The position numbers and the translations under genes were made by a program. A DNA stretch of 64,000 bases from Geothrix sp. 21YS21S-4 (lineage in GTDB: Bacteria; Acidobacteriota; Holophagae; Holophagales; Holophagaceae), in assembly GCF_030845995.1 (NCBI RefSeq), contig NZ_CP132719.1, forward strand, positions 1,178,001 through 1,242,000, written 5' to 3'. This document shows positions 12,333 through 56,103 of this stretch, in pieces. The notes below the pieces were generated by a model. That model saw only the letters and a list, made by a program, of their open reading frames with translations. It did not search any database and was not told the DNA's origin. The number at the start of each line of letters is the position of its first letter. The stretch's first letter is position 1.

Positions 12333-13166
12333 GTGCGGGCCCAGCCGACCTTCGTCCGGCTCGCGTCGGGGGTGAAGCTCCACTACCGCGTCCAGGGACC
12401 GCCGGGCGCGCCGTGGGTGGTGCTGCTCAACGGCCTCCTGTCGGACACCACCATGTGGGCCGGCGTCCTCCCCGGGCTGACGGATCGCTGCCGCGTGTTG
12501 ACCTTCGACAGCCGCGGCCAGGGCCGCTCCGACGCGCCGGAGGAAGGCCCCTATCCCACGGCCCTGCTGGCGACGGAGGCCTGGGAGTTGTTTCGGGCGC
12601 TGGAGGTGGACCGCCCCTGGTTGATGGGCCTCTCCAACGGCAGCGCCATCAGCCTGGAACTGCTCAGCGCCCATCCCGGCGCCTTCGCCGGGGCCGTCCT
12701 CACCAGCGCCCTGTCGCGCATCGACTTCGCCATGGGGCTGAAGGCCGAGCACTGGGCCCGCTGCCTGGAGGTGGGCGGGCCGCTGATGCAGTTCGACGCC
12801 GTCGCGCCCTTCCTGTGGGGCGATGCCTTCCTGGAGGCCCGGCACGGCGTGCTGCGGGCCTACCACCAGGTGGTCACCGGCGCCGGGAAGCCCCTCCACG
12901 GCAACCTCCATCAGATCCGCGGGATCCTGGGCTGGGACATCCGGGATCGGTTGGGCGCTATGGATGCGCCGACGCTGCTGTTGTGCGGCGCCGAGGACCT
13001 GCTGACGCCGCCGTGGAAGTGCCTGGAGACCGCCCGCCTGATCGCCGGCAGCCGGTTCGAGACGGTGCCCGGCATCGGCCACGCCTACCCCGTGGAGGAC
13101 CCCAAGGGGTTCGCGGCCAGGGTTAAGCAGTTCATGGAGAAATCCGACGCGAGGTTTGGACAATAG
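12333..13166 (+). CDS. Alpha/beta hydrolase
   Basis: A 277-residue alpha/beta hydrolase with oxyanion region VLLNGLLSD, FDSRGQGRSDAP, a nucleophile elbow GLSNGS (Ser about 96) and the catalytic His in GIGHAYPVED. It looks like the 3-oxoadipate enol-lactonase/esterase branch, but substrate cannot be assigned. GTG start at 12333, 1 bp after the sixA stop, so the genes are co-transcribed and probably translationally coupled. The nucleophile GxSxG has Asn at the fourth position (GLSNGS). Confidence 0.8.
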   Translation: MRAQPTFVRLASGVKLHYRVQGPPGAPWVVLLNGLLSDTTMWAGVLPGLTDRCRVLTFDSRGQGRSDAPEEGPYPTALLATEAWELFRALEVDRPWLMGLSNGSAISLELLSAHPGAFAGAVLTSALSRIDFAMGLKAEHWARCLEVGGPLMQFDAVAPFLWGDAFLEARHGVLRAYHQVVTGAGKPLHGNLHQIRGILGWDIRDRLGAMDAPTLLLCGAEDLLTPPWKCLETARLIAGSRFETVPGIGHAYPVEDPKGFAARVKQFMEKSDARFGQ

Positions 13167-13232
13167 GGGAATCTGGCCTACCATACAGCCTTCCCCGAGC
13201 CACTTCCGACTCGCCCTGCCCCCAGGTGACCT

Positions 13233-14525
13233 ATGGCCACCCCTTCTCAGTCCCCGGTCGTCCTGAGCCTGCAAGAGCTCAAGGAACTCTCCATCGGCAA
13301 GCTCGCCGACCTGGCAAAGGGCCTGGAGATCGACAACCCGCTGTCCATGCGGAAGCAGGAACTGGTGTTCCGGGTGCTCCAGGCGCAGGCGGAGCGCGAG
13401 GGCCAGTTCTTCGCGGAGGGCGTGCTGGAGGTGCTGCCCGAGGGCTTCGGCTTCCTGCGGAGCCCCGACCAGAACTACCTCGCCGGGCCCGAGGACATCT
13501 ACGTCTCCCCCAGCCAGATCCGCAAGTTCAACCTCCGCACCGGCGACACGCTGTCCGGCATGATCCGCGCGCCGAAGGAGGGCGAGAAGTTCTTCGCCAT
13601 GCTACGGGTGGACGCCGTCAACTTCGATCCCCCGACGGTGGCGAAGGACCGCGCCCACTTCGACGACCTGGTGCCCCTCTATCCCAAGCACCACCTCCGC
13701 ATGGAGCGCGACGCCCAGGAGCTGAGCACCCGCGTCATGGACCTGATGACGCCCCTGGGCAAGGGCCAGCGCGCCCTGATCGTGGCGCCGCCGCGCACGG
13801 GCAAGACCGTGCTCCTCCAGAACATCGCCAACTCCATCACCGCCAACCATCCCGAAGTCTTCCTCATCGTCCTGCTCATCGACGAGCGGCCCGAGGAAGT
13901 CACGGACATGGAGCGCGGCGTGAAGGGCGAGGTGGTCTCCAGCACCTTCGACGAGCCCGCCACCCGCCACGTCCAGGTGGCCGAAATGGTCATCGAGAAG
14001 GCCAAGCGCCTGGTCGAGCACAAGAAGGACGTGGTGATCCTGCTGGATTCCATCACGCGCCTGGCCCGGGCCTACAACACCGTGGTCCCCCCCAGCGGCA
14101 AGGTGCTGTCCGGCGGCGTGGACAGCAACGCCCTCCAGCGCCCCAAGCGGTTCTTCGGCGCCGCGCGGAACATCGAAGCCGGCGGCAGCCTCACCATCAT
14201 CGCCACCGCCCTCATCGAGACCGGCAGCCGCATGGACGACGTGATCTTCGAGGAGTTCAAGGGCACCGGCAACAGCGAGATCGTCCTGGACCGCAAGCTC
14301 AGCGACAAGCGCATTTTCCCCGCCATGGACATCCAGAAGTCCGGCACCCGCAAGGAAGACCTGCTCATCGAACCCGCCAAGCTCGCCAAGATCTGGGTCC
14401 TCCGCAAAATCCTCAGCGCCAGCGGCCCCAGCGAAAGCATGGAGCTCCTCGTGGATCGCCTGGGTAAGGCCAAGACCAACGATGAGTTCCTGGCGAACTT
14501 GCAGGAGCCGACGCCGCGGCGGTGA
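13233..14525 (+). CDS. rho: Transcription termination factor Rho
   Basis: Hexameric RNA helicase that releases RNA polymerase at Rho-dependent terminators. The 430-residue protein has the N-terminal Rho_N helical domain ([18 protein letters not shown]), an OB-fold RNA-binding domain ([21 protein letters not shown]), Walker A PPRTGKT (Lys about 191), Walker B ([16 protein letters not shown]) and the Q/R loops ([20 protein letters not shown]). Length is close to the E. coli protein, with none of the long N-terminal insertion found in some phyla. A short leader separates it from the hydrolase gene. It is the last normal-composition gene before the AT-rich island. Confidence 0.97.
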
Positions 14526-14938
14526 GGGTAGGGTCCGTGCGGATAGGGGTGTTGTAGGGGGGTTGGTTCGAGAGGCTGAGCCTTGGATCAGGAGGGCTAG
14601 GCCATTAGAGCGGGAGCTTTAACTTCTTTCATGCAGAGGGAAGCAAAGCCTAAGGCCCTATTCGGGAATCGGCGGAGAGCCCTTCCGGCTCCAGAGCATC
14701 TCCCGCTCTCTGTCTATGTCCGAATCCGTGAGATTTCTCCGGGTGCTGAAGTAGAATCGATCATCCTCCCCTCCTTTTTCGGTCTGCCAAATTAGACGTC
14801 ATCAGTCTCACGGCTCTTCAACATTTAGGCCCTCCTTGCATTCCTTCCGTTCTCTCTCAACATCTCACTATCCCGGTTTCGCTCAGTGCCCGGTACAGGC
14901 GGTGTCGATTAACTCCATTCATCAGGCGACTCAATCCT
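14526..14938. other. Intergenic, left flank of AT-rich island, with overlapping small open frames
   Basis: No recognised gene. Composition falls from GC-rich to AT-rich along this stretch. Two overlapping small frames are open: a plus-strand frame from ATG 14631 to 14795 (54 aa, weak upstream GGGAGC) and a minus-strand frame 14798-14658 (46 residues, no start codon, hydrophilic, ending in SPPIPE). Either may be a remnant of a gene cut by the island insertion. The motif CCTTCCGTTCTCTC at 14843 recurs ahead of the second island gene. Confidence 0.5.
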
Positions 14939-15478
14939 ATGAATAACTTACTAACAACTATTATTACAAGTTCTCTTGTTGCTACTATTACGGGTGCGAT
15001 AATTAATGGATATATTGAAGATCGAAAATCAAAACAATCCGTTAGATTTGAGGCCCTCGCGATTGCTGTTGCTCTCGAGGGATATGCTATTATCTGCGCC
15101 AATAAAATTTCAGCCCACAATACCGCAGTCACATCAGAAGGAGCGGCCAGTTTATTGTTGAGAAGTGTACCAAAGTTTCCGCAATTCTCTGGAGTGATTA
15201 GATTTTTTGGTCCTCGGAAGATGTCATTAGCTAATAGAATAATGATGTTTTCTCAGGAAGTATATCAGGCAAATCAGAGTGTGGCATTTTGGTGGGAGGT
15301 AGTTGGTGATTTAGAGGCAATGTACCAAGAAGCAAAAATTCAAGGTGCTAAAATGGGCTTGCAAAGTCTTGATCTTGCCCGCGATATTCGAGAGGAATTT
15401 AAATTACCCCATCGGATCCTTATTTTTGGTGACTATGACATTCGCCAACTCCTTAAAGAGCAAAACCGTATGGTCTAA
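14939..15478 (+). CDS. Membrane-anchored hypothetical protein in AT-rich island
   Basis: A 179-residue protein with one N-terminal hydrophobic segment (about residues 4-24, TTIITSSLVATITGAII) and a mainly helical cytoplasmic part containing RFEALAIAVALEGYAIICA and a C-terminal amphipathic region. It resembles an orphan family of single-pass hypothetical proteins, from memory of sequence flavour only; no function is known. Codon use is strongly AT-biased compared with every flanking gene, which indicates recent acquisition. No clear Shine-Dalgarno precedes ATG 14939. The second island gene follows after 125 bp on the same strand. Confidence 0.7.
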   Translation: MNNLLTTIITSSLVATITGAIINGYIEDRKSKQSVRFEALAIAVALEGYAIICANKISAHNTAVTSEGAASLLLRSVPKFPQFSGVIRFFGPRKMSLANRIMMFSQEVYQANQSVAFWWEVVGDLEAMYQEAKIQGAKMGLQSLDLARDIREEFKLPHRILIFGDYDIRQLLKEQNRMV

Positions 15479-15603
15479 GCTATGTTCCAGAACTGCCTAT
15501 CCTTCCGTTCTCTCAATTTCTCATTTTCTGATTTCCATTGGTCATCTGTGGGCACCGGCGCCAGTTAGCTTCCATTGATAGACTCCTCCTAATAGGAGAA
15601 CAC

Positions 15604-16134
15604 ATGAAAAAAATTATATCAGCAGCAATTGGTGGAATATTGTCATTTATGTTATTCCTATCTCTTGCTATATTGATAGACTTCCTATTTTTTGATAACA
15701 TTAATCGCGCAGGACCTGGGTTCATTCAAGTTGCGACATATGCGGTATTAGGGGGGGTAATCACTGCGACTTCAGGGGCATATCGCAACCCGGAGCCCAT
15801 ATTTCGAGTTATATACTTTTTTAGAAAATTATTTTCCCTAAGCCAGCTTACTACTGGTCTTAAAAGAACAATGTTTTTAGTGTTAATTATGGGTATAAGT
15901 CTTTGGGGACTCAATATTGGCACTTATTATATCAACCATTGGAATGATTTTTATGGATTCTTTGAGCTTGTGCCTTTTAATTATGGGAAAGATTACACGT
16001 TATATTGGTTTTTCTTTTGGCTGAGTATGGTATTGATTGTTGCGGGAATTGCTGGTTCATTTCTCTACGATGCAACCATCGGTCATGTGATCGCTTGGAT
16101 TAGAAATGGAAATAAAAGTGATTCTAATCTTTAG
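15604..16134 (+). CDS. Four-TM hypothetical membrane protein in AT-rich island
   Basis: A 176-residue inner-membrane protein with four predicted spanning segments (about residues 5-30, 43-60, 95-116 and 139-163). The first begins right after MKK and the fourth is WFFFWLSMVLIVAGIAGSFL. The start ATG 15604 has a good AGGAGA site 6 nt upstream; the frame opens 22 codons earlier. It shares with the preceding gene an AT-rich composition and a common leader motif CCTTCCGTTCTCTC about 100 bp before the start. No family is recognised. Likely a partner of the single-pass protein encoded upstream; role unknown. Confidence 0.7.
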   Translation: MKKIISAAIGGILSFMLFLSLAILIDFLFFDNINRAGPGFIQVATYAVLGGVITATSGAYRNPEPIFRVIYFFRKLFSLSQLTTGLKRTMFLVLIMGISLWGLNIGTYYINHWNDFYGFFELVPFNYGKDYTLYWFFFWLSMVLIVAGIAGSFLYDATIGHVIAWIRNGNKSDSNL

Positions 16135-16564
16135 CTCAATAAGTCATTGGGGAGGATCTAAGAACTAAGTAGCGGCATTAGGGAGAAAGGGTCGCATCGG
16201 AAAGAGGGATCAGAAGATGAGTAATGCTTGAAGCCCCCTCAATACCTGTAACGCTTCCAGGGAGAAAAGCCATTCGCCTTGCTTAGAACGTTCCTAGCAC
16301 ATGCCATCAATACAATAGATAGTCTCATAACTTACAACCAAAAATTGACGTTTGTATCCCAACCACAACAATCGTGGGAAGTGTCGAGATTGCGCGCTAA
16401 GATTGCGCGCTAAGCGGAGCAAATTCGTTCTCTTCGCAAACAGCCGGAGACCTACTAGCACTGTGAGTATTGGTCACCTCCACAGTCTACTCTTTATTCA
16501 ACGCTTTGCTTTAGAGCTTTGCCACTCCCTCGGCTAAACTGAAAGGTCATCCGGAAGCCCGCCC
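16135..16564. other. Intergenic, right flank of AT-rich island
   Basis: No gene is supported. A 13-bp sequence, GATTGCGCGCTAA, is directly duplicated in tandem at 16388-16413. A 61-codon plus frame at 16352-16537 is open but has no ribosome site and a random-looking composition. The GC content returns to normal at the start of the dihydrouridine synthase gene. No integrase, attachment site or tRNA was recognised. Confidence 0.5.
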
Positions 16565-17548
16565 GTGACCTTTCCCCACACCCCTTTCCACATCGGTCCC
16601 GTCGAGGTGCCCAACCGCCTCGTGATGGCGCCGCTGCACGAGATCACGGACCAGCCGTTCCGGCGGTTCATCCGCGAGATCGGGGGGGTGGGGCTGACGG
16701 TGTCGGAGATGATCAGCAGCGAGGCGCTGATCCGGCATGCGGTGAAGGCGGAGCGGATGATGGCGGGGACGGAGGAGCGGCCGCTGTCTATGCAGATCTC
16801 CGGGGGGCGGCCGGAGGCGCTGGCGGAGGGGGCGCAGCTGTGCGAGGCGGCGGGGGCGGACCTGGTGGACCTGAACATGGGGTGCCCGGCGAGCAACGTC
16901 ACCAAGGGCGGGGCGGGGTCGGCGCTGCTGAAGGACATCCGGCTGGCGGAGCGTTGCGTCACGGCGATGGTGAAGGCCGTGAAGGTGCCGGTGACGGTGA
17001 AGATGCGCGCCGGCTGGGACGCATCCCAGAAGGACCGGGGCGAGTTCCTGGACTTCCTGCGGATGTTCGACGCGGCGGGCGTGAAGGCCCTGGCCATCCA
17101 CCCGCGCACCCGCGCCCAGCAGTACGAGGGTCACGCCGACTGGAGCATCATCGCCCGCGCGGTGGAGGCCGGCACGTCGTATCCCATCCTCGGAAACGGC
17201 GACGTGAACGCGCGGGAGGACGCCTTCCGCATGGTGGAAGAGACGGGCTGCGCGGCGGTGATGATCGGCCGCGGCGCCCTCTACAACCCCTTCCTGTTTC
17301 GGCAGATCCTGGAGCCGGAGCTGGGAGTGACCACCGAGATGCGGATCGATGCCACGCTACGGCTGTTCCGGATCCTGCTGGATCTGCTGGAGCCGCGCGA
17401 GGCCCTGCACAAGATCAAGAAGATCGGCGCCTGGTTCACCAAGGGCGTGCCGGGCGGCCACGGGTTCCGCCAGAACCTGCACGCCGCGGGCGATCCGCAG
17501 GCGCTGATGGCGGCCATCGACGCCCTGCGCCATGCGGGCGCGGCCTGA
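16565..17548 (+). CDS. tRNA-dihydrouridine synthase
   Basis: FMN enzyme reducing specific uridines in tRNA D-loops with NADPH. The 327-residue protein carries VMAPLHEITDQPFRR at the start, the catalytic-cysteine motif NMGCPASNVTKGGAGSAL, VKMRAGWD, HPRTRAQQYEGHADW, GNGDVN and IGRGALYNP, all typical of DusB-like enzymes. Starts with GTG at 16565, directly at the right edge of the AT-rich island, so its own promoter may have been supplied by or disturbed by the island. Converges with the CDF transporter gene across a CACCAAG palindrome. Confidence 0.93.
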   Translation: MTFPHTPFHIGPVEVPNRLVMAPLHEITDQPFRRFIREIGGVGLTVSEMISSEALIRHAVKAERMMAGTEERPLSMQISGGRPEALAEGAQLCEAAGADLVDLNMGCPASNVTKGGAGSALLKDIRLAERCVTAMVKAVKVPVTVKMRAGWDASQKDRGEFLDFLRMFDAAGVKALAIHPRTRAQQYEGHADWSIIARAVEAGTSYPILGNGDVNAREDAFRMVEETGCAAVMIGRGALYNPFLFRQILEPELGVTTEMRIDATLRLFRILLDLLEPREALHKIKKIGAWFTKGVPGGHGFRQNLHAAGDPQALMAAIDALRHAGAA

Positions 17549-53021: not shown

Positions 53022-53513
53022 ATGAAAAGGATGCTCTTCCCGCTGCTGGCCGTGCCCCTGGTGGTCCAGGCGACGCCGCCCGTTCCCCAGCCGGATCCCT
53101 TCGCCGCCGTCCGGTTCCTGGAAGGCACCTGGCGGGGCGAGGGCGAAGGGCGGCCCGGCCCGTCTCTCGGCGCGTCCACCTTCCGGTTCGAGCTGGGCGG
53201 CCAGGCCCTGATCCTCCGCAGCTACGCGGACTCGGCGGCTTCCCGCCACGAGGACCTGATGGCGACCTTCGTGGAAGGCGGCGTGCTGAAGGCGTTCTAC
53301 CTGGACAGCGAAGGCCACGTCATCCGTTACCGCGTGACGGCCGCCGCCGACGGCGCCGTGTTCGAAAGCGAAGCGGGGCCTGGCCCCCGCTTCCGCCTCA
53401 CCTATCGCCGCACCGCGAAGGACCGCCTGGGCCTCACTTTCGAGATGGCGGCGCCCGATGCGCCCAGCGCCTACAAACCCTACCTCCAGGCGACCCTGCG
53501 TCGGGGGGAGTGA
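53022..53513 (+). CDS. Secreted hypothetical protein, beta-barrel-like
   Basis: A 163-residue exported protein with a signal peptide (MKRMLFPLLAVPLVVQA) and a compact all-beta pattern: FLEGTWRGEGEG, FRFELGGQALILRSYA, HVIRYRVTAAADGAVFES, FRLTYRRTAKDRLGLTFE. This resembles DUF1579 or lipocalin-like fold proteins, but no family can be fixed. GGAGG lies upstream of ATG 53022, 23 bp after murD, so it may be read with murD. Followed by the repeat array. Confidence 0.65.
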   Translation: MKRMLFPLLAVPLVVQATPPVPQPDPFAAVRFLEGTWRGEGEGRPGPSLGASTFRFELGGQALILRSYADSAASRHEDLMATFVEGGVLKAFYLDSEGHVIRYRVTAAADGAVFESEAGPGPRFRLTYRRTAKDRLGLTFEMAAPDAPSAYKPYLQATLRRGE

Positions 53514-53539
53514 GACCTCCGGCATTCAAAAGATTGAAA

Positions 53540-53626
53540 GATCACCACCAAGACACCAAGGCACCAAGAATGGCCGAAGAAAGAGGCTGCTTTTCTTGGC
53601 GCGCTTGTTGTCTTGGCGGTGAAAAG
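53540..53626. repeat. Palindromic CACCAAG-family element, copy 4
   Basis: GATCACCACCAAGACACCAA (53540-53559), extended by GGCACCAAG, pairs with CTTGGCGCGCTTG and TTGTCTTGGCGGTGA (53595-53622). The right arm is more diverged than in the other copies (CGCGCTTGTTG), and this variant is the one repeated in the adjacent tandem array. Confidence 0.8.
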
Positions 53627-53653
53627 GACCTGGGATCTTGTCGCCGATTTCTA

Positions 53654-54275
53654 AGCTGCTCGGTGCTTGCATCGCCAAATCAAAAAGCAGAGGAGAGCCG
53701 AGGAAGCGAGGAAAGCGGAGAAATTTCTTCTCCGCTTTCCTCAGCCGCTCTGCGTTCCTCCGCTTTGGAGATGTTTTTTCCTGGATCGCTCGGGACCGGT
53801 GTTCAAGTAACGGCGAAAGAAGGACTCGGTTTTCTTGGCGCGCTTGGTGCCTTGGCGGTGAAAGAGCCTCGGGTCCTGATCGCTCCCCTGGGTCTCAGCT
53901 GCCCGATGCTCGCATCGCCAAATCAAAAAGCAGAGGAGGGCCGAGGAACGGAGGAGATCGGAGGGATTCTTTCTCTGCTTTCCTCAGCCACTCTGCGTTC
54001 CTCCGCTTTGGAGATGTTTTTTCCTGGATCGCTCGGGACCGGTGTTCAAGTAACGGCGAAAGAAGGACTCGGTTTTCTTGGCGCGCTTGGTGCCTTGGCA
54101 GTGAAAGAACCTCGGATCCTGATCGCTCTCCCCTGGGTCTCAGCTGCCCGGTGCTCGCATCGCCAAATCAATAAGCAGAGGAGAGCCGAGGAGCGGAGGA
54201 GACCGGAGAGGTTTCTTCTCCGCTTTCCTCGGCCACTCTGTACCCTCCGCTTTGGAGATGCTTTTTCCTGGATCT
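53654..54275. repeat. Tandem array, about 2.5 copies of a 243-245 bp unit
   Basis: AGCTGC...ATCGCCAAATCAA marks the start of each unit at 53654, 53897 and 54142 (periods 243 and 245). Each unit has an imperfect inverted repeat (left arm AGCAGAGGAGAGCCGAGGA, right arm with CTCTGCGTTCCTCCGC; in unit 1 with a core GCGGAGAA...TTCTCCGC), a block TTTTTCCTGGATCGCTCGG, and in units 1 and 2 a right half-arm of the CACCAAG palindrome (53830 and 54072). Unit 3 stops after the inverted repeat. Confidence 0.85.
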
Positions 54276-54339
54276 CCCGGCCCTTCGACCTGCGGCCTCC
54301 GCGACGAGCGATGATGGATCTATGGATGGCCGCTTACCC

Positions 54340-56103
54340 CTACGCGCCGGTCTGCCTCCAGAACTTCGCGGGGGCGTAGCACACGGCCATCAGGACGAGC
54401 TGGCTGGCGATGAAGCCGGTGAGGGCCCAGAAGGCCTGGTCCATGAAGCCGTAGGAGTGGAGGCCCACGCCGAGCATGTTCACGCCGAACCAGGAGCAGG
54501 CGGTGATGATGTTGCCGAAGATGGCCATCACCATCGTGCCGCGCTGGCGGACGTAGCCCGCCCAGCGGGCGTGGAGGATGATGGCGTTCCACAGCACGAT
54601 GAGCAGGGCGCCGTTCTCCTTGGGATCCCAGCCCCAGAAGCGGCCCCAGGATTGGTCGGCCCAGATGCCGCCCAGGACGGTGCCCACGAAGCTGAAGAAC
54701 AGGGCGAAGCAGATGACGCCGTAGGCCATATCCACCAGGGCCTTGTCCGTCTCGGCGTCCTGCACGGCGACGACGTGCTTGCGGATGGCGTAGGCGATGG
54801 CGATGGCTCCAGCGAGGAAGGTGCCGGAGTAGCCGATGGTGATGGTCACGACGTGGGTGGCCAGCCAGAAGTTGGAGTCCAGCACGGCGCGCATCATCTC
54901 CATCGTGTCGCCCTCGGTGCCCAGGTTCTGGGCCACGATCAGGGACGCGAAGCCCGCCAGGGACGCCACGGCGGTGCCGAAGCCCTTGCGGTACATCCGC
55001 TCCACGATGAGCCCCAGCACCACGGCCCCCCAGCCCACGAACACGGCGGAGGAGTAGAGGTTGGTGACGGGCGGGCGGCCCTGGAGGATGATCCGCGCGG
55101 CCAGGCCCAGGGTGTGGACGATGGCGCCGGAGGCCAGCAGGGCGTAGGCGGTGGGACGGAGGATCTCCGGCTTCCAGGCCCAGGAGACGGCCAGCACGAG
55201 GAAGGCCACGAAGTAGATGGTCAGGCCCGCGAAGAAGGGCTGGGCGCGGTTGAAGATGACTTCGTTGGAGGCATGGCTGGCGGCCTCCGGCTTGAGGGTG
55301 GCCACGGCGGTCTTCAGGTCCGCGAGGGCTTGATTGAAGGTGGCGGCGTCGCTGGCGGCGTAGGCCGCGTTCAGCTTGGCGAGGGGCACCAGGCCCGGGT
55401 GGAGGTGGGCGCCGGCCTGGGCGGCGCTGAGGGCTTGGCCCACGCTCTGCCACGCGTCGGGGCCGTTTCCGGGCGGGGGCGGCAGGATGCGGAACTGGGC
55501 GAACTGGATCAGGTCCTGGTGGCGGGCCGCGGCTTCGGCGGTGCCCAGGGACTGGATCTCCCAGCCCAGGCCGGGGGAGCCGGCGAGCTGGAGGGTGTTC
55601 CGCAGCTTGTAGTAGAGGTAGACGCGGTCGAACAGGTTGACGACGGCGCTCTGGAAGCGGGTGCGCTTCTGGGGCGGTATGGACTGGGCCGCCATGGCCT
55701 GTTTCTGGACCTCCTGCAGGTAGGGCGAGAGGTCGGCGAAGCTGAAGTAGTTGCGGCTCTTGGTCTGGCGCGCGCCGATGAGGCTCAGCACTTCCAGATC
55801 GTCGATCACGAAGATGGCCTGGGTATCGGCCACCTGGGGACGGAACATCACGTCGAGAATCCACTCGTCCGGTCCCACCATCCGCCCGTCGTGGCGGAAG
55901 CTCTGGCGGCTGTGGATCACCAGGAGGGCGTTGCGGGCCACGGAATCCAGCGGCTTGACGCGCCCGCCTTCCAGGATGGGCAGGCTGCCGAAGCCCCCCA
56001 CGTCGAAGCCCCGGGCCTTCCCGGGAGGCAGGGCGAAGGTGAGGGCGACCAGCAGGGCGAGGGCCCCGGCCCCCCAGGCGACGAGCTTGGCGAGGTTCTT
56101 CAT
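54340..56103 (-). CDS. ccsA: Cytochrome c biogenesis protein CcsA/ResC type
   Basis: Large inner-membrane heme-handling protein of System II cytochrome c assembly (587 aa). It has an N-terminal membrane helix, an extracytoplasmic domain of about 270 residues, and about eight C-terminal helices carrying the tryptophan-rich heme motif WGRFWGWDPKENGAL and conserved histidines (ATHVVTITIGYSG, LHARWAGY). ResB is encoded just upstream on the same strand; the pair forms the heme lyase complex. Confidence 0.92.
   Translation of the reverse strand: MKNLAKLVAWGAGALALLVALTFALPPGKARGFDVGGFGSLPILEGGRVKPLDSVARNALLVIHSRQSFRHDGRMVGPDEWILDVMFRPQVADTQAIFVIDDLEVLSLIGARQTKSRNYFSFADLSPYLQEVQKQAMAAQSIPPQKRTRFQSAVVNLFDRVYLYYKLRNTLQLAGSPGLGWEIQSLGTAEAAARHQDLIQFAQFRILPPPPGNGPDAWQSVGQALSAAQAGAHLHPGLVPLAKLNAAYAASDAATFNQALADLKTAVATLKPEAASHASNEVIFNRAQPFFAGLTIYFVAFLVLAVSWAWKPEILRPTAYALLASGAIVHTLGLAARIILQGRPPVTNLYSSAVFVGWGAVVLGLIVERMYRKGFGTAVASLAGFASLIVAQNLGTEGDTMEMMRAVLDSNFWLATHVVTITIGYSGTFLAGAIAIAYAIRKHVVAVQDAETDKALVDMAYGVICFALFFSFVGTVLGGIWADQSWGRFWGWDPKENGALLIVLWNAIILHARWAGYVRQRGTMVMAIFGNIITACSWFGVNMLGVGLHSYGFMDQAFWALTGFIASQLVLMAVCYAPAKFWRQTGA

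Follow-up and report, generated by a model that had tools for sequence, protein, structure and literature searches.

An AT-rich island between rho and dus in a Geothrix genome, probably derived from integron gene cassettes

Clusters of attC sites without an integrase carry the term CALIN, for which a default threshold of two sites is given in PMC9024848. In PMC12444791, the CALINs of Xanthomonas are described as dispersed from the integron, with intI inactivated, and antiphage cassettes in the chromosomal integrons of Vibrio are discussed in PMC12409362. An acidobacterial attC model also exists (PMC8352920), and among the matches listed in a literature search combining integrons with Geothrix or Holophaga there was no title on integrons of these genera.

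Here we describe an AT-rich island in Geothrix sp. 21YS21S-4, located between rho and the dihydrouridine synthase gene (dus) in a 64-kb stretch of DNA (the window, which refers to the whole stretch analysed), that is most likely a decayed CALIN. Like a CALIN, the island holds short orphan genes with no integron integrase in the window, and around these genes are two attC-like sites, the second of them weak by the attC model; unlike a CALIN, it shows strong erosion of both sites, and its second cassette is devoid of a recognisable 3' attC. Cassette clusters that lie away from the integron, and an integrase that is lost or broken while cassettes remain, are shared with Xanthomonas, although the host group there is other than Acidobacteriota. 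With the antiphage cassette libraries of Vibrio, the island shares small cassette genes, one of which falls here in a phage-defence candidate family, but in this strain the array is stranded, the integrase is broken and the gene in question (orf1) is a candidate by sequence. The analysis offers an explanation for a hitherto unexplained AT-rich island with orphan membrane genes, in a genus outside the usual integron models that carries many cassettes, some of them far from the integron. It also cautions that short, AT-rich islands of orphan genes within GC-rich genomes could be the remains of cassettes, with attC sites so far decayed that they escape the eye.

Composition and gene content of the island

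The GC content was 42.8% across positions 14600–16540 in comparison to 69.1% for the window as a whole. The five 1.94-kb stretches with the lowest GC content all started at 14561–14641 (sampling step of 20 bases) and the lowest such stretch starting outside 13000–17000 had 63.0% GC, making the island the sharpest of the window. GC3 was 0.32 in both island genes (orf1 and orf2) versus 0.94 in rho and dus, and these values bear out the sharp AT-rich island that an earlier note on this DNA had placed between the two flanking genes. A second and milder GC dip (55–61%) was observed at positions 53250–54500 of the window.

The island is flanked on the left by rho (13233–14525, plus strand; Pfam Rho_N, Rho_RNA_bind and ATP-synt_ab) and on the right by dus (16565–17548, plus strand; Pfam Dus), upstream of which GGCTAAACTGAAAGGTC resembles the pre-dus sequence of relatives at the short-gap junctions compared. 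Both genes of the island are on the plus strand, as previously noted, with orf1 (179 aa) at 14939–15478 and orf2 (176 aa) at 15604–16134, the latter followed by an AT-rich tail (16135–16530). The unassigned stretch between rho and the first attC-like site (14526–14804) gave a weak attC-like score that was reached by 24 of 500 shuffles; from its composition it is possibly a decayed upstream cassette, which is a guess. No Rfam family matched anywhere in the window at gathering thresholds. No transposase or integrase was seen inside the island, in agreement with the earlier note, which had overlooked two attC-like recombination sites.

attC-like sites and the broken integron integrase

The first clue to these sites was that the sequence immediately preceding orf1 has matches at three further positions of the strain's 3.08-Mb genome. 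Intact copies of this sequence consist of GCCTAAC, approximately 110 bases and GTTAGGC or GTTAGGT, in addition to a second, inner pair of complementary boxes. Complementary outer and inner boxes are the general plan of attC sites, and the intact copies follow this plan. A search with one intact copy yielded further copies in the genome. Ten complete sites, all from outside the window and comprising seven long and three shorter ones, served to build a covariance model, R1. In its consensus fold the outer boxes pair, as do the inner ones, through 24 pairs in all, and in seven of these one sequence or more differs on both sides.

Within the genome, R1 identified at least 14 sites at E ≤ 1e-6, distributed over seven places, a count that is a lower bound as 150 of 3530 first-look candidates were scored; ten of the 14 sites had been used to build R1 and four, including one at the island, were new. 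Three sites were found at 776–779 kb (span 776206–778593), two at 909–912 kb, one in the window, one on the opposite strand at 1591 kb, one at 2014 kb, three at 2290–2292 kb and three at 2519–2520 kb, while the fifteenth match had an E value of 0.03. Thirteen of the 14 sites read in one direction and these occur to either side of the point farthest from dnaA (itself at 8 kb), so that no tie to replication direction was seen. Open frames within the attC clusters were mostly GC-poorer than the genome.

Three further observations were made at such places in the genome. One pair of overlapping long open frames is present twice, at 910188–911570 (L043) and 2520582–2522159 (L046), in or beside two different cassette clusters; the two copies are alike where compared and are perhaps an insertion sequence. 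A partial attC-like site at 752423 (L041) adjoins a gene of 272 aa that is FRG-domain-like by eye. At about 1589.5–1591.6 kb (L128), an AT-rich island contains the opposite-strand attC match together with two overlapping long frames, one of which is HNH-like by eye.

At the island, the first degenerate site (site A, 14805–14927) was identified by R1 on the minus strand, the bottom strand being the strand modelled, with 48.6 bits and E values of 6.1e-12 in the 64-kb window and 2.9e-10 in the whole genome; orf1 starts 11 bases after it. The second degenerate site (site B, 15473–15583, minus strand) lies between orf1 and orf2, its first six bases overlapping the end of orf1, and was weak by R1 (15.8 bits, with E values of 0.024 in the 64 kb and, with filters off, 0.00076 over 2.1 kb). 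Site B was missing from the whole-genome R1 matches at E ≤ 1, and the next-best place in the 64 kb had an E value of 0.4. When stretches were scored by alignment to seven intact sites, with 500 dinucleotide shuffles of each stretch as a control, none of the shuffles reached the alignment score of either the site A stretch (14790–14938) or the gap between orf1 and orf2 (15479–15603). Sites A and B start 668 bp apart, have TCCTTCCGTTCTCTC in common and both align over their full length to positions 1–124 of R1, with several broken pairs in each; the outer GTCTA/TAGAC arms of site B still pair. In both, complementary R boxes on the outside and L boxes on the inside enclose a variable middle, which is the attC architecture.

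For an attC site to be recombination-competent, its R' box must contain the crossover triplet (GTT/AAC) intact. The GTT triplet of the 3' R box (R', top strand) is retained in nine of the ten sites used for R1; in its place site A has ATC and site B has GAT, so that both sites are expected to be dead. A third attC-like site proposed by eye after orf2, TTCTAATCTTTAGCTCAA, was rejected because 15 of 200 shuffles of its 5' arm did as well, as did 471 of 500 shuffles of 16135–16300 and 208 of 500 of 16300–16564. With no recognisable attC after orf2, the second cassette lacks a 3' site of its own.

The best match to the integron integrase model TIGR02249 in the genome was divided between two frames, as a pair of overlapping pieces (L042) of which the second contains a stop, at 774208–774561 (175 bits) and 774509–775153 (252 bits), both of them under the cut-off of 265. 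This broken integron integrase gene is located 418 kb from the island and has an attC array beside it (the three sites at 776–779 kb). In the window TIGR02249 gave no match at E ≤ 1e-5, as expected of a CALIN, and the island differs from a complete integron in having no intact intI next to its array. Weaker TIGR02249 matches (76 bits or less) at 1346, 1387, 1777 and 2517 kb are probably other tyrosine recombinases, as matches of this kind appeared in 14 of 14 control genomes.

At E ≤ 1e-40, TIGR02249 matched 42 of 61 family genomes, own genome included, with 40 over the cut-off, in comparison to none of the 14 controls, and within the genus 25 of 31 genomes matched, again including our own. 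Of 47 genus genomes, 45 (this strain's among them) had R1 sites at E ≤ 1e-6, in numbers reaching at least 75 per genome; the filters were stricter here, and 75 candidates were scored. Among the matches listed, one relative (G003) had the integrase at 582 kb with sites at 567–578 kb and another group at 1534–1547 kb, and a second (G043) had groups at 703–712 kb, next to an integrase at 714 kb, and at 1971–1976, 2166–2175 and 2600–2603 kb. Cassette clusters away from the integrase are therefore not special to this strain.

These distributions also bear on whether the repeats could instead be a MITE-like or other palindromic family unrelated to integrons, which the degenerate state of sites A and B, not recognisable by themselves, might suggest. 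The intact copies, however, pair GCCTAAC with GTTAGGC as outer boxes and have further complementary inner boxes, and copies adjoin integron integrase genes both in this genome and in relatives such as G043, making a palindromic family of this kind hardly credible. Our reading is that the island is very probably of cassette origin, as integron gene cassettes, and the estimate behind these words covers cassette origin by any route of arrival.

orf1, orf2 and a candidate phage-defence family

Searches with orf1 identified a match to the PADLOC model PDC-S67 (PDLC05063; E 3e-12, 44 bits), a model for which the PADLOC library gives no curated cut-off, and the match was near full-length, covering residues 9–175 of orf1 and profile positions 8–176 of 203. 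PDC designates a phage defence candidate, according to PMC11514479, and the literature search returned no mention of the name PDC-S67. No Pfam family exceeded its cut-off (best Bul1_N, E 0.022), NCBIfam gave no match and nothing else of note was found in the libraries. Hydropathy showed one clear N-terminal hydrophobic stretch (residues 4–22) and a borderline one at 35–57, and a single-sequence AlphaFold model was useless (mean pLDDT 41.5).

Relatives of orf1 were sought in several collections. Among 396 genomes of the phylum, the PDC-S67 profile at E ≤ 1e-6 recovered the strain's own copy only. An apparent relative in another genome (G204, E 7.6e-4) was discarded as a chance hit, its frame being a dus-like ORF by eye (L108, 1156–2169, minus strand), and scans of genome and viral contigs with peptide patterns yielded no confirmed relative. 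Plasmids gave nothing by tblastn at E 1e-3, and at E 10 one weak, near full-length match from Cupriavidus basilensis (25.5% identity, E 0.02; pairwise E 6e-11). Used in turn as the query, the Cupriavidus basilensis protein matched 32 plasmid records, its own included, and all six of the relatives tested from these records matched PDC-S67 at 49–135 bits, against 44 bits for the cassette gene orf1. A site-specific integrase is close to the plasmid gene in four of the six contexts, directly beside it in two (L133 and L134) and one gene away in two (L132 and L135), and toxin-antitoxin genes lie near the gene in two of the six.

We consider orf1 a PDC-S67 protein, of a family suspected of antiphage activity. 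The role that appears likeliest, and that we suggest tentatively, would be a small membrane-anchored accessory protein, possibly antiphage. An antiphage function of orf1 is to be regarded as a lead and not as a result, and orf1 is singled out as a cassette gene amenable to a direct test of phage protection.

orf2 is a hydrophobic membrane protein with no assigned family. Its coordinates refer to an inner ATG, preceded by an AGGAG ribosome-binding-like sequence (by eye), within a longer frame from a TTG at 15538. Kyte-Doolittle analysis gave three separate hydrophobic stretches (approximately residues 1–30, 89–107 and 136–154) and the single-sequence AlphaFold model was all helical at low confidence (pLDDT 62.8); the four transmembrane segments previously attributed to this protein are possible on this basis but not established. 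There was no match at E values up to 1 in Pfam, PADLOC or NCBIfam, marginal matches in PHROG (best E 0.031) and none in plasmids (E 1e-3), phages or the PDB. Among the 396 phylum genomes orf2 was found in its own genome only, and a peptide-pattern scan of viral contigs confirmed no relative.

The earlier note had proposed a recently acquired two-gene membrane module for phage defence, toxin or stress response, and its phage-defence part holds to a limited extent for orf1, through a match to a family that is itself a prediction, with no such support for orf2. A horizontally acquired defence or toxin module, in which orf1 and orf2 cooperate and were transferred as a single unit, would account for two adjacent genes of the same strand and composition, one of which matches a phage-defence candidate model. 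Against this, an attC-like site precedes each gene, plasmids harbour relatives of orf1 but gave no match to orf2 at E 1e-3, and orf2 was confined to one of the 396 phylum genomes with no relative in phages or viral contigs, so that the co-occurrence of the two families that had been proposed as a check was not observed. PDC-S, moreover, denotes a single-gene candidate. We regard such a module as very unlikely. As each gene follows an attC-like site of its own, the pairing of orf1 and orf2 looks like a chance neighbourhood in a cassette array, with orf2 a membrane protein of another cassette, unrelated to orf1.

The rho-dus junction in related genomes

The dus gene was matched in 42 of 47 genus genomes, own genome included. 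The junction sample consisted of the loci of 29 relatives and longer stretches of 17, nine of these being from the same genomes, giving 46 loci from 37 relatives. Both rho and dus could be placed in 33 relatives; the remaining eight of the 41 relatives with a dus match comprised four without rho in the stretch examined (two of them with about 9 kb upstream) and four outside the sample. The gap between the two genes in these 33 relatives was 141–200 bp in 13, 652–1395 bp in 11 and 1.8–8.7 kb in nine.

Neither orf1 nor orf2 was present at E 1e-3 in any of the 46 junction loci of the 37 relatives, and no R1 site occurred in the rho-dus region of any relative at these 46 loci, so that cassettes at this junction have been seen once only. 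The island was present in one of the 34 genomes resolved at the junction, own genome included, whereas CALIN positions in Xanthomonas are relatively conserved (PMC12444791). The exact insertion point of the island was not readable. The foreign origin suggested earlier is supported by the composition and by the absence of both genes from 33 of 33 resolved relatives of the same genus. A recent acquisition is doubtful in view of the erosion of both attC sites and the break in the integron integrase gene.

The lineage's own integrase is probably what placed the cassettes. An integron integrase would have set the cassette row, attC A, orf1, attC B and orf2, in an order that may be the original one, between rho and dus by acting at a place in the chromosome away from the integron. 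Erosion of the attC sites would have followed, with the crossover triplet lost in both, and the integrase gene of the genome would have broken; with eroded sites and a broken integrase gene, the cassettes would now be fixed.

Alternatively, the cassettes may be real while the island arrived by ordinary recombination at a variable junction, bringing attC-like sites from another integron with no placement by an integrase. The junction is indeed variable, with gaps from 141 bp to 8.7 kb in the 33 relatives, and it receives genes with no R1 site nearby. In one relative (G042), an AT-rich gene of 522 aa at L110:1160–2728 (minus strand) matches the defence reverse transcriptase Drt8 (E 1.5e-123), and in a second (G064) an ORF at L115:7258–8826 has the same length and a similar start, L110 being the one locus scanned against the Drt8 model. 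The same attC family, however, is found at six other places of the host genome, which makes a local source the simplest, and we consider arrival by ordinary recombination unlikely. Since this alternative shares the identification of cassettes, its estimate overlaps with the one given above for cassette origin.

Placement by the lineage's integrase can be set in a wider and more speculative scheme, which we think has a modest chance of being correct. The genus would keep a large cassette reservoir from which the integrase seeds many chromosomal places, and after the integrase broke a few cassettes, including the candidate antiphage PDC-S67 gene, would have been left under host control at core-gene junctions such as rho-dus. 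In this scheme, defence genes would arrive at the junction and settle there by various routes, with Drt8 in one relative, the like ORF in a second and the PDC-S67 cassette here. Other relatives have methyltransferase-like, sensor-like and other ORFs at the junction (names by eye), and given these ORFs the junction is not defence-specific. With its variable gap and different genes in different species, the rho-dus junction looks like an insertion hotspot.
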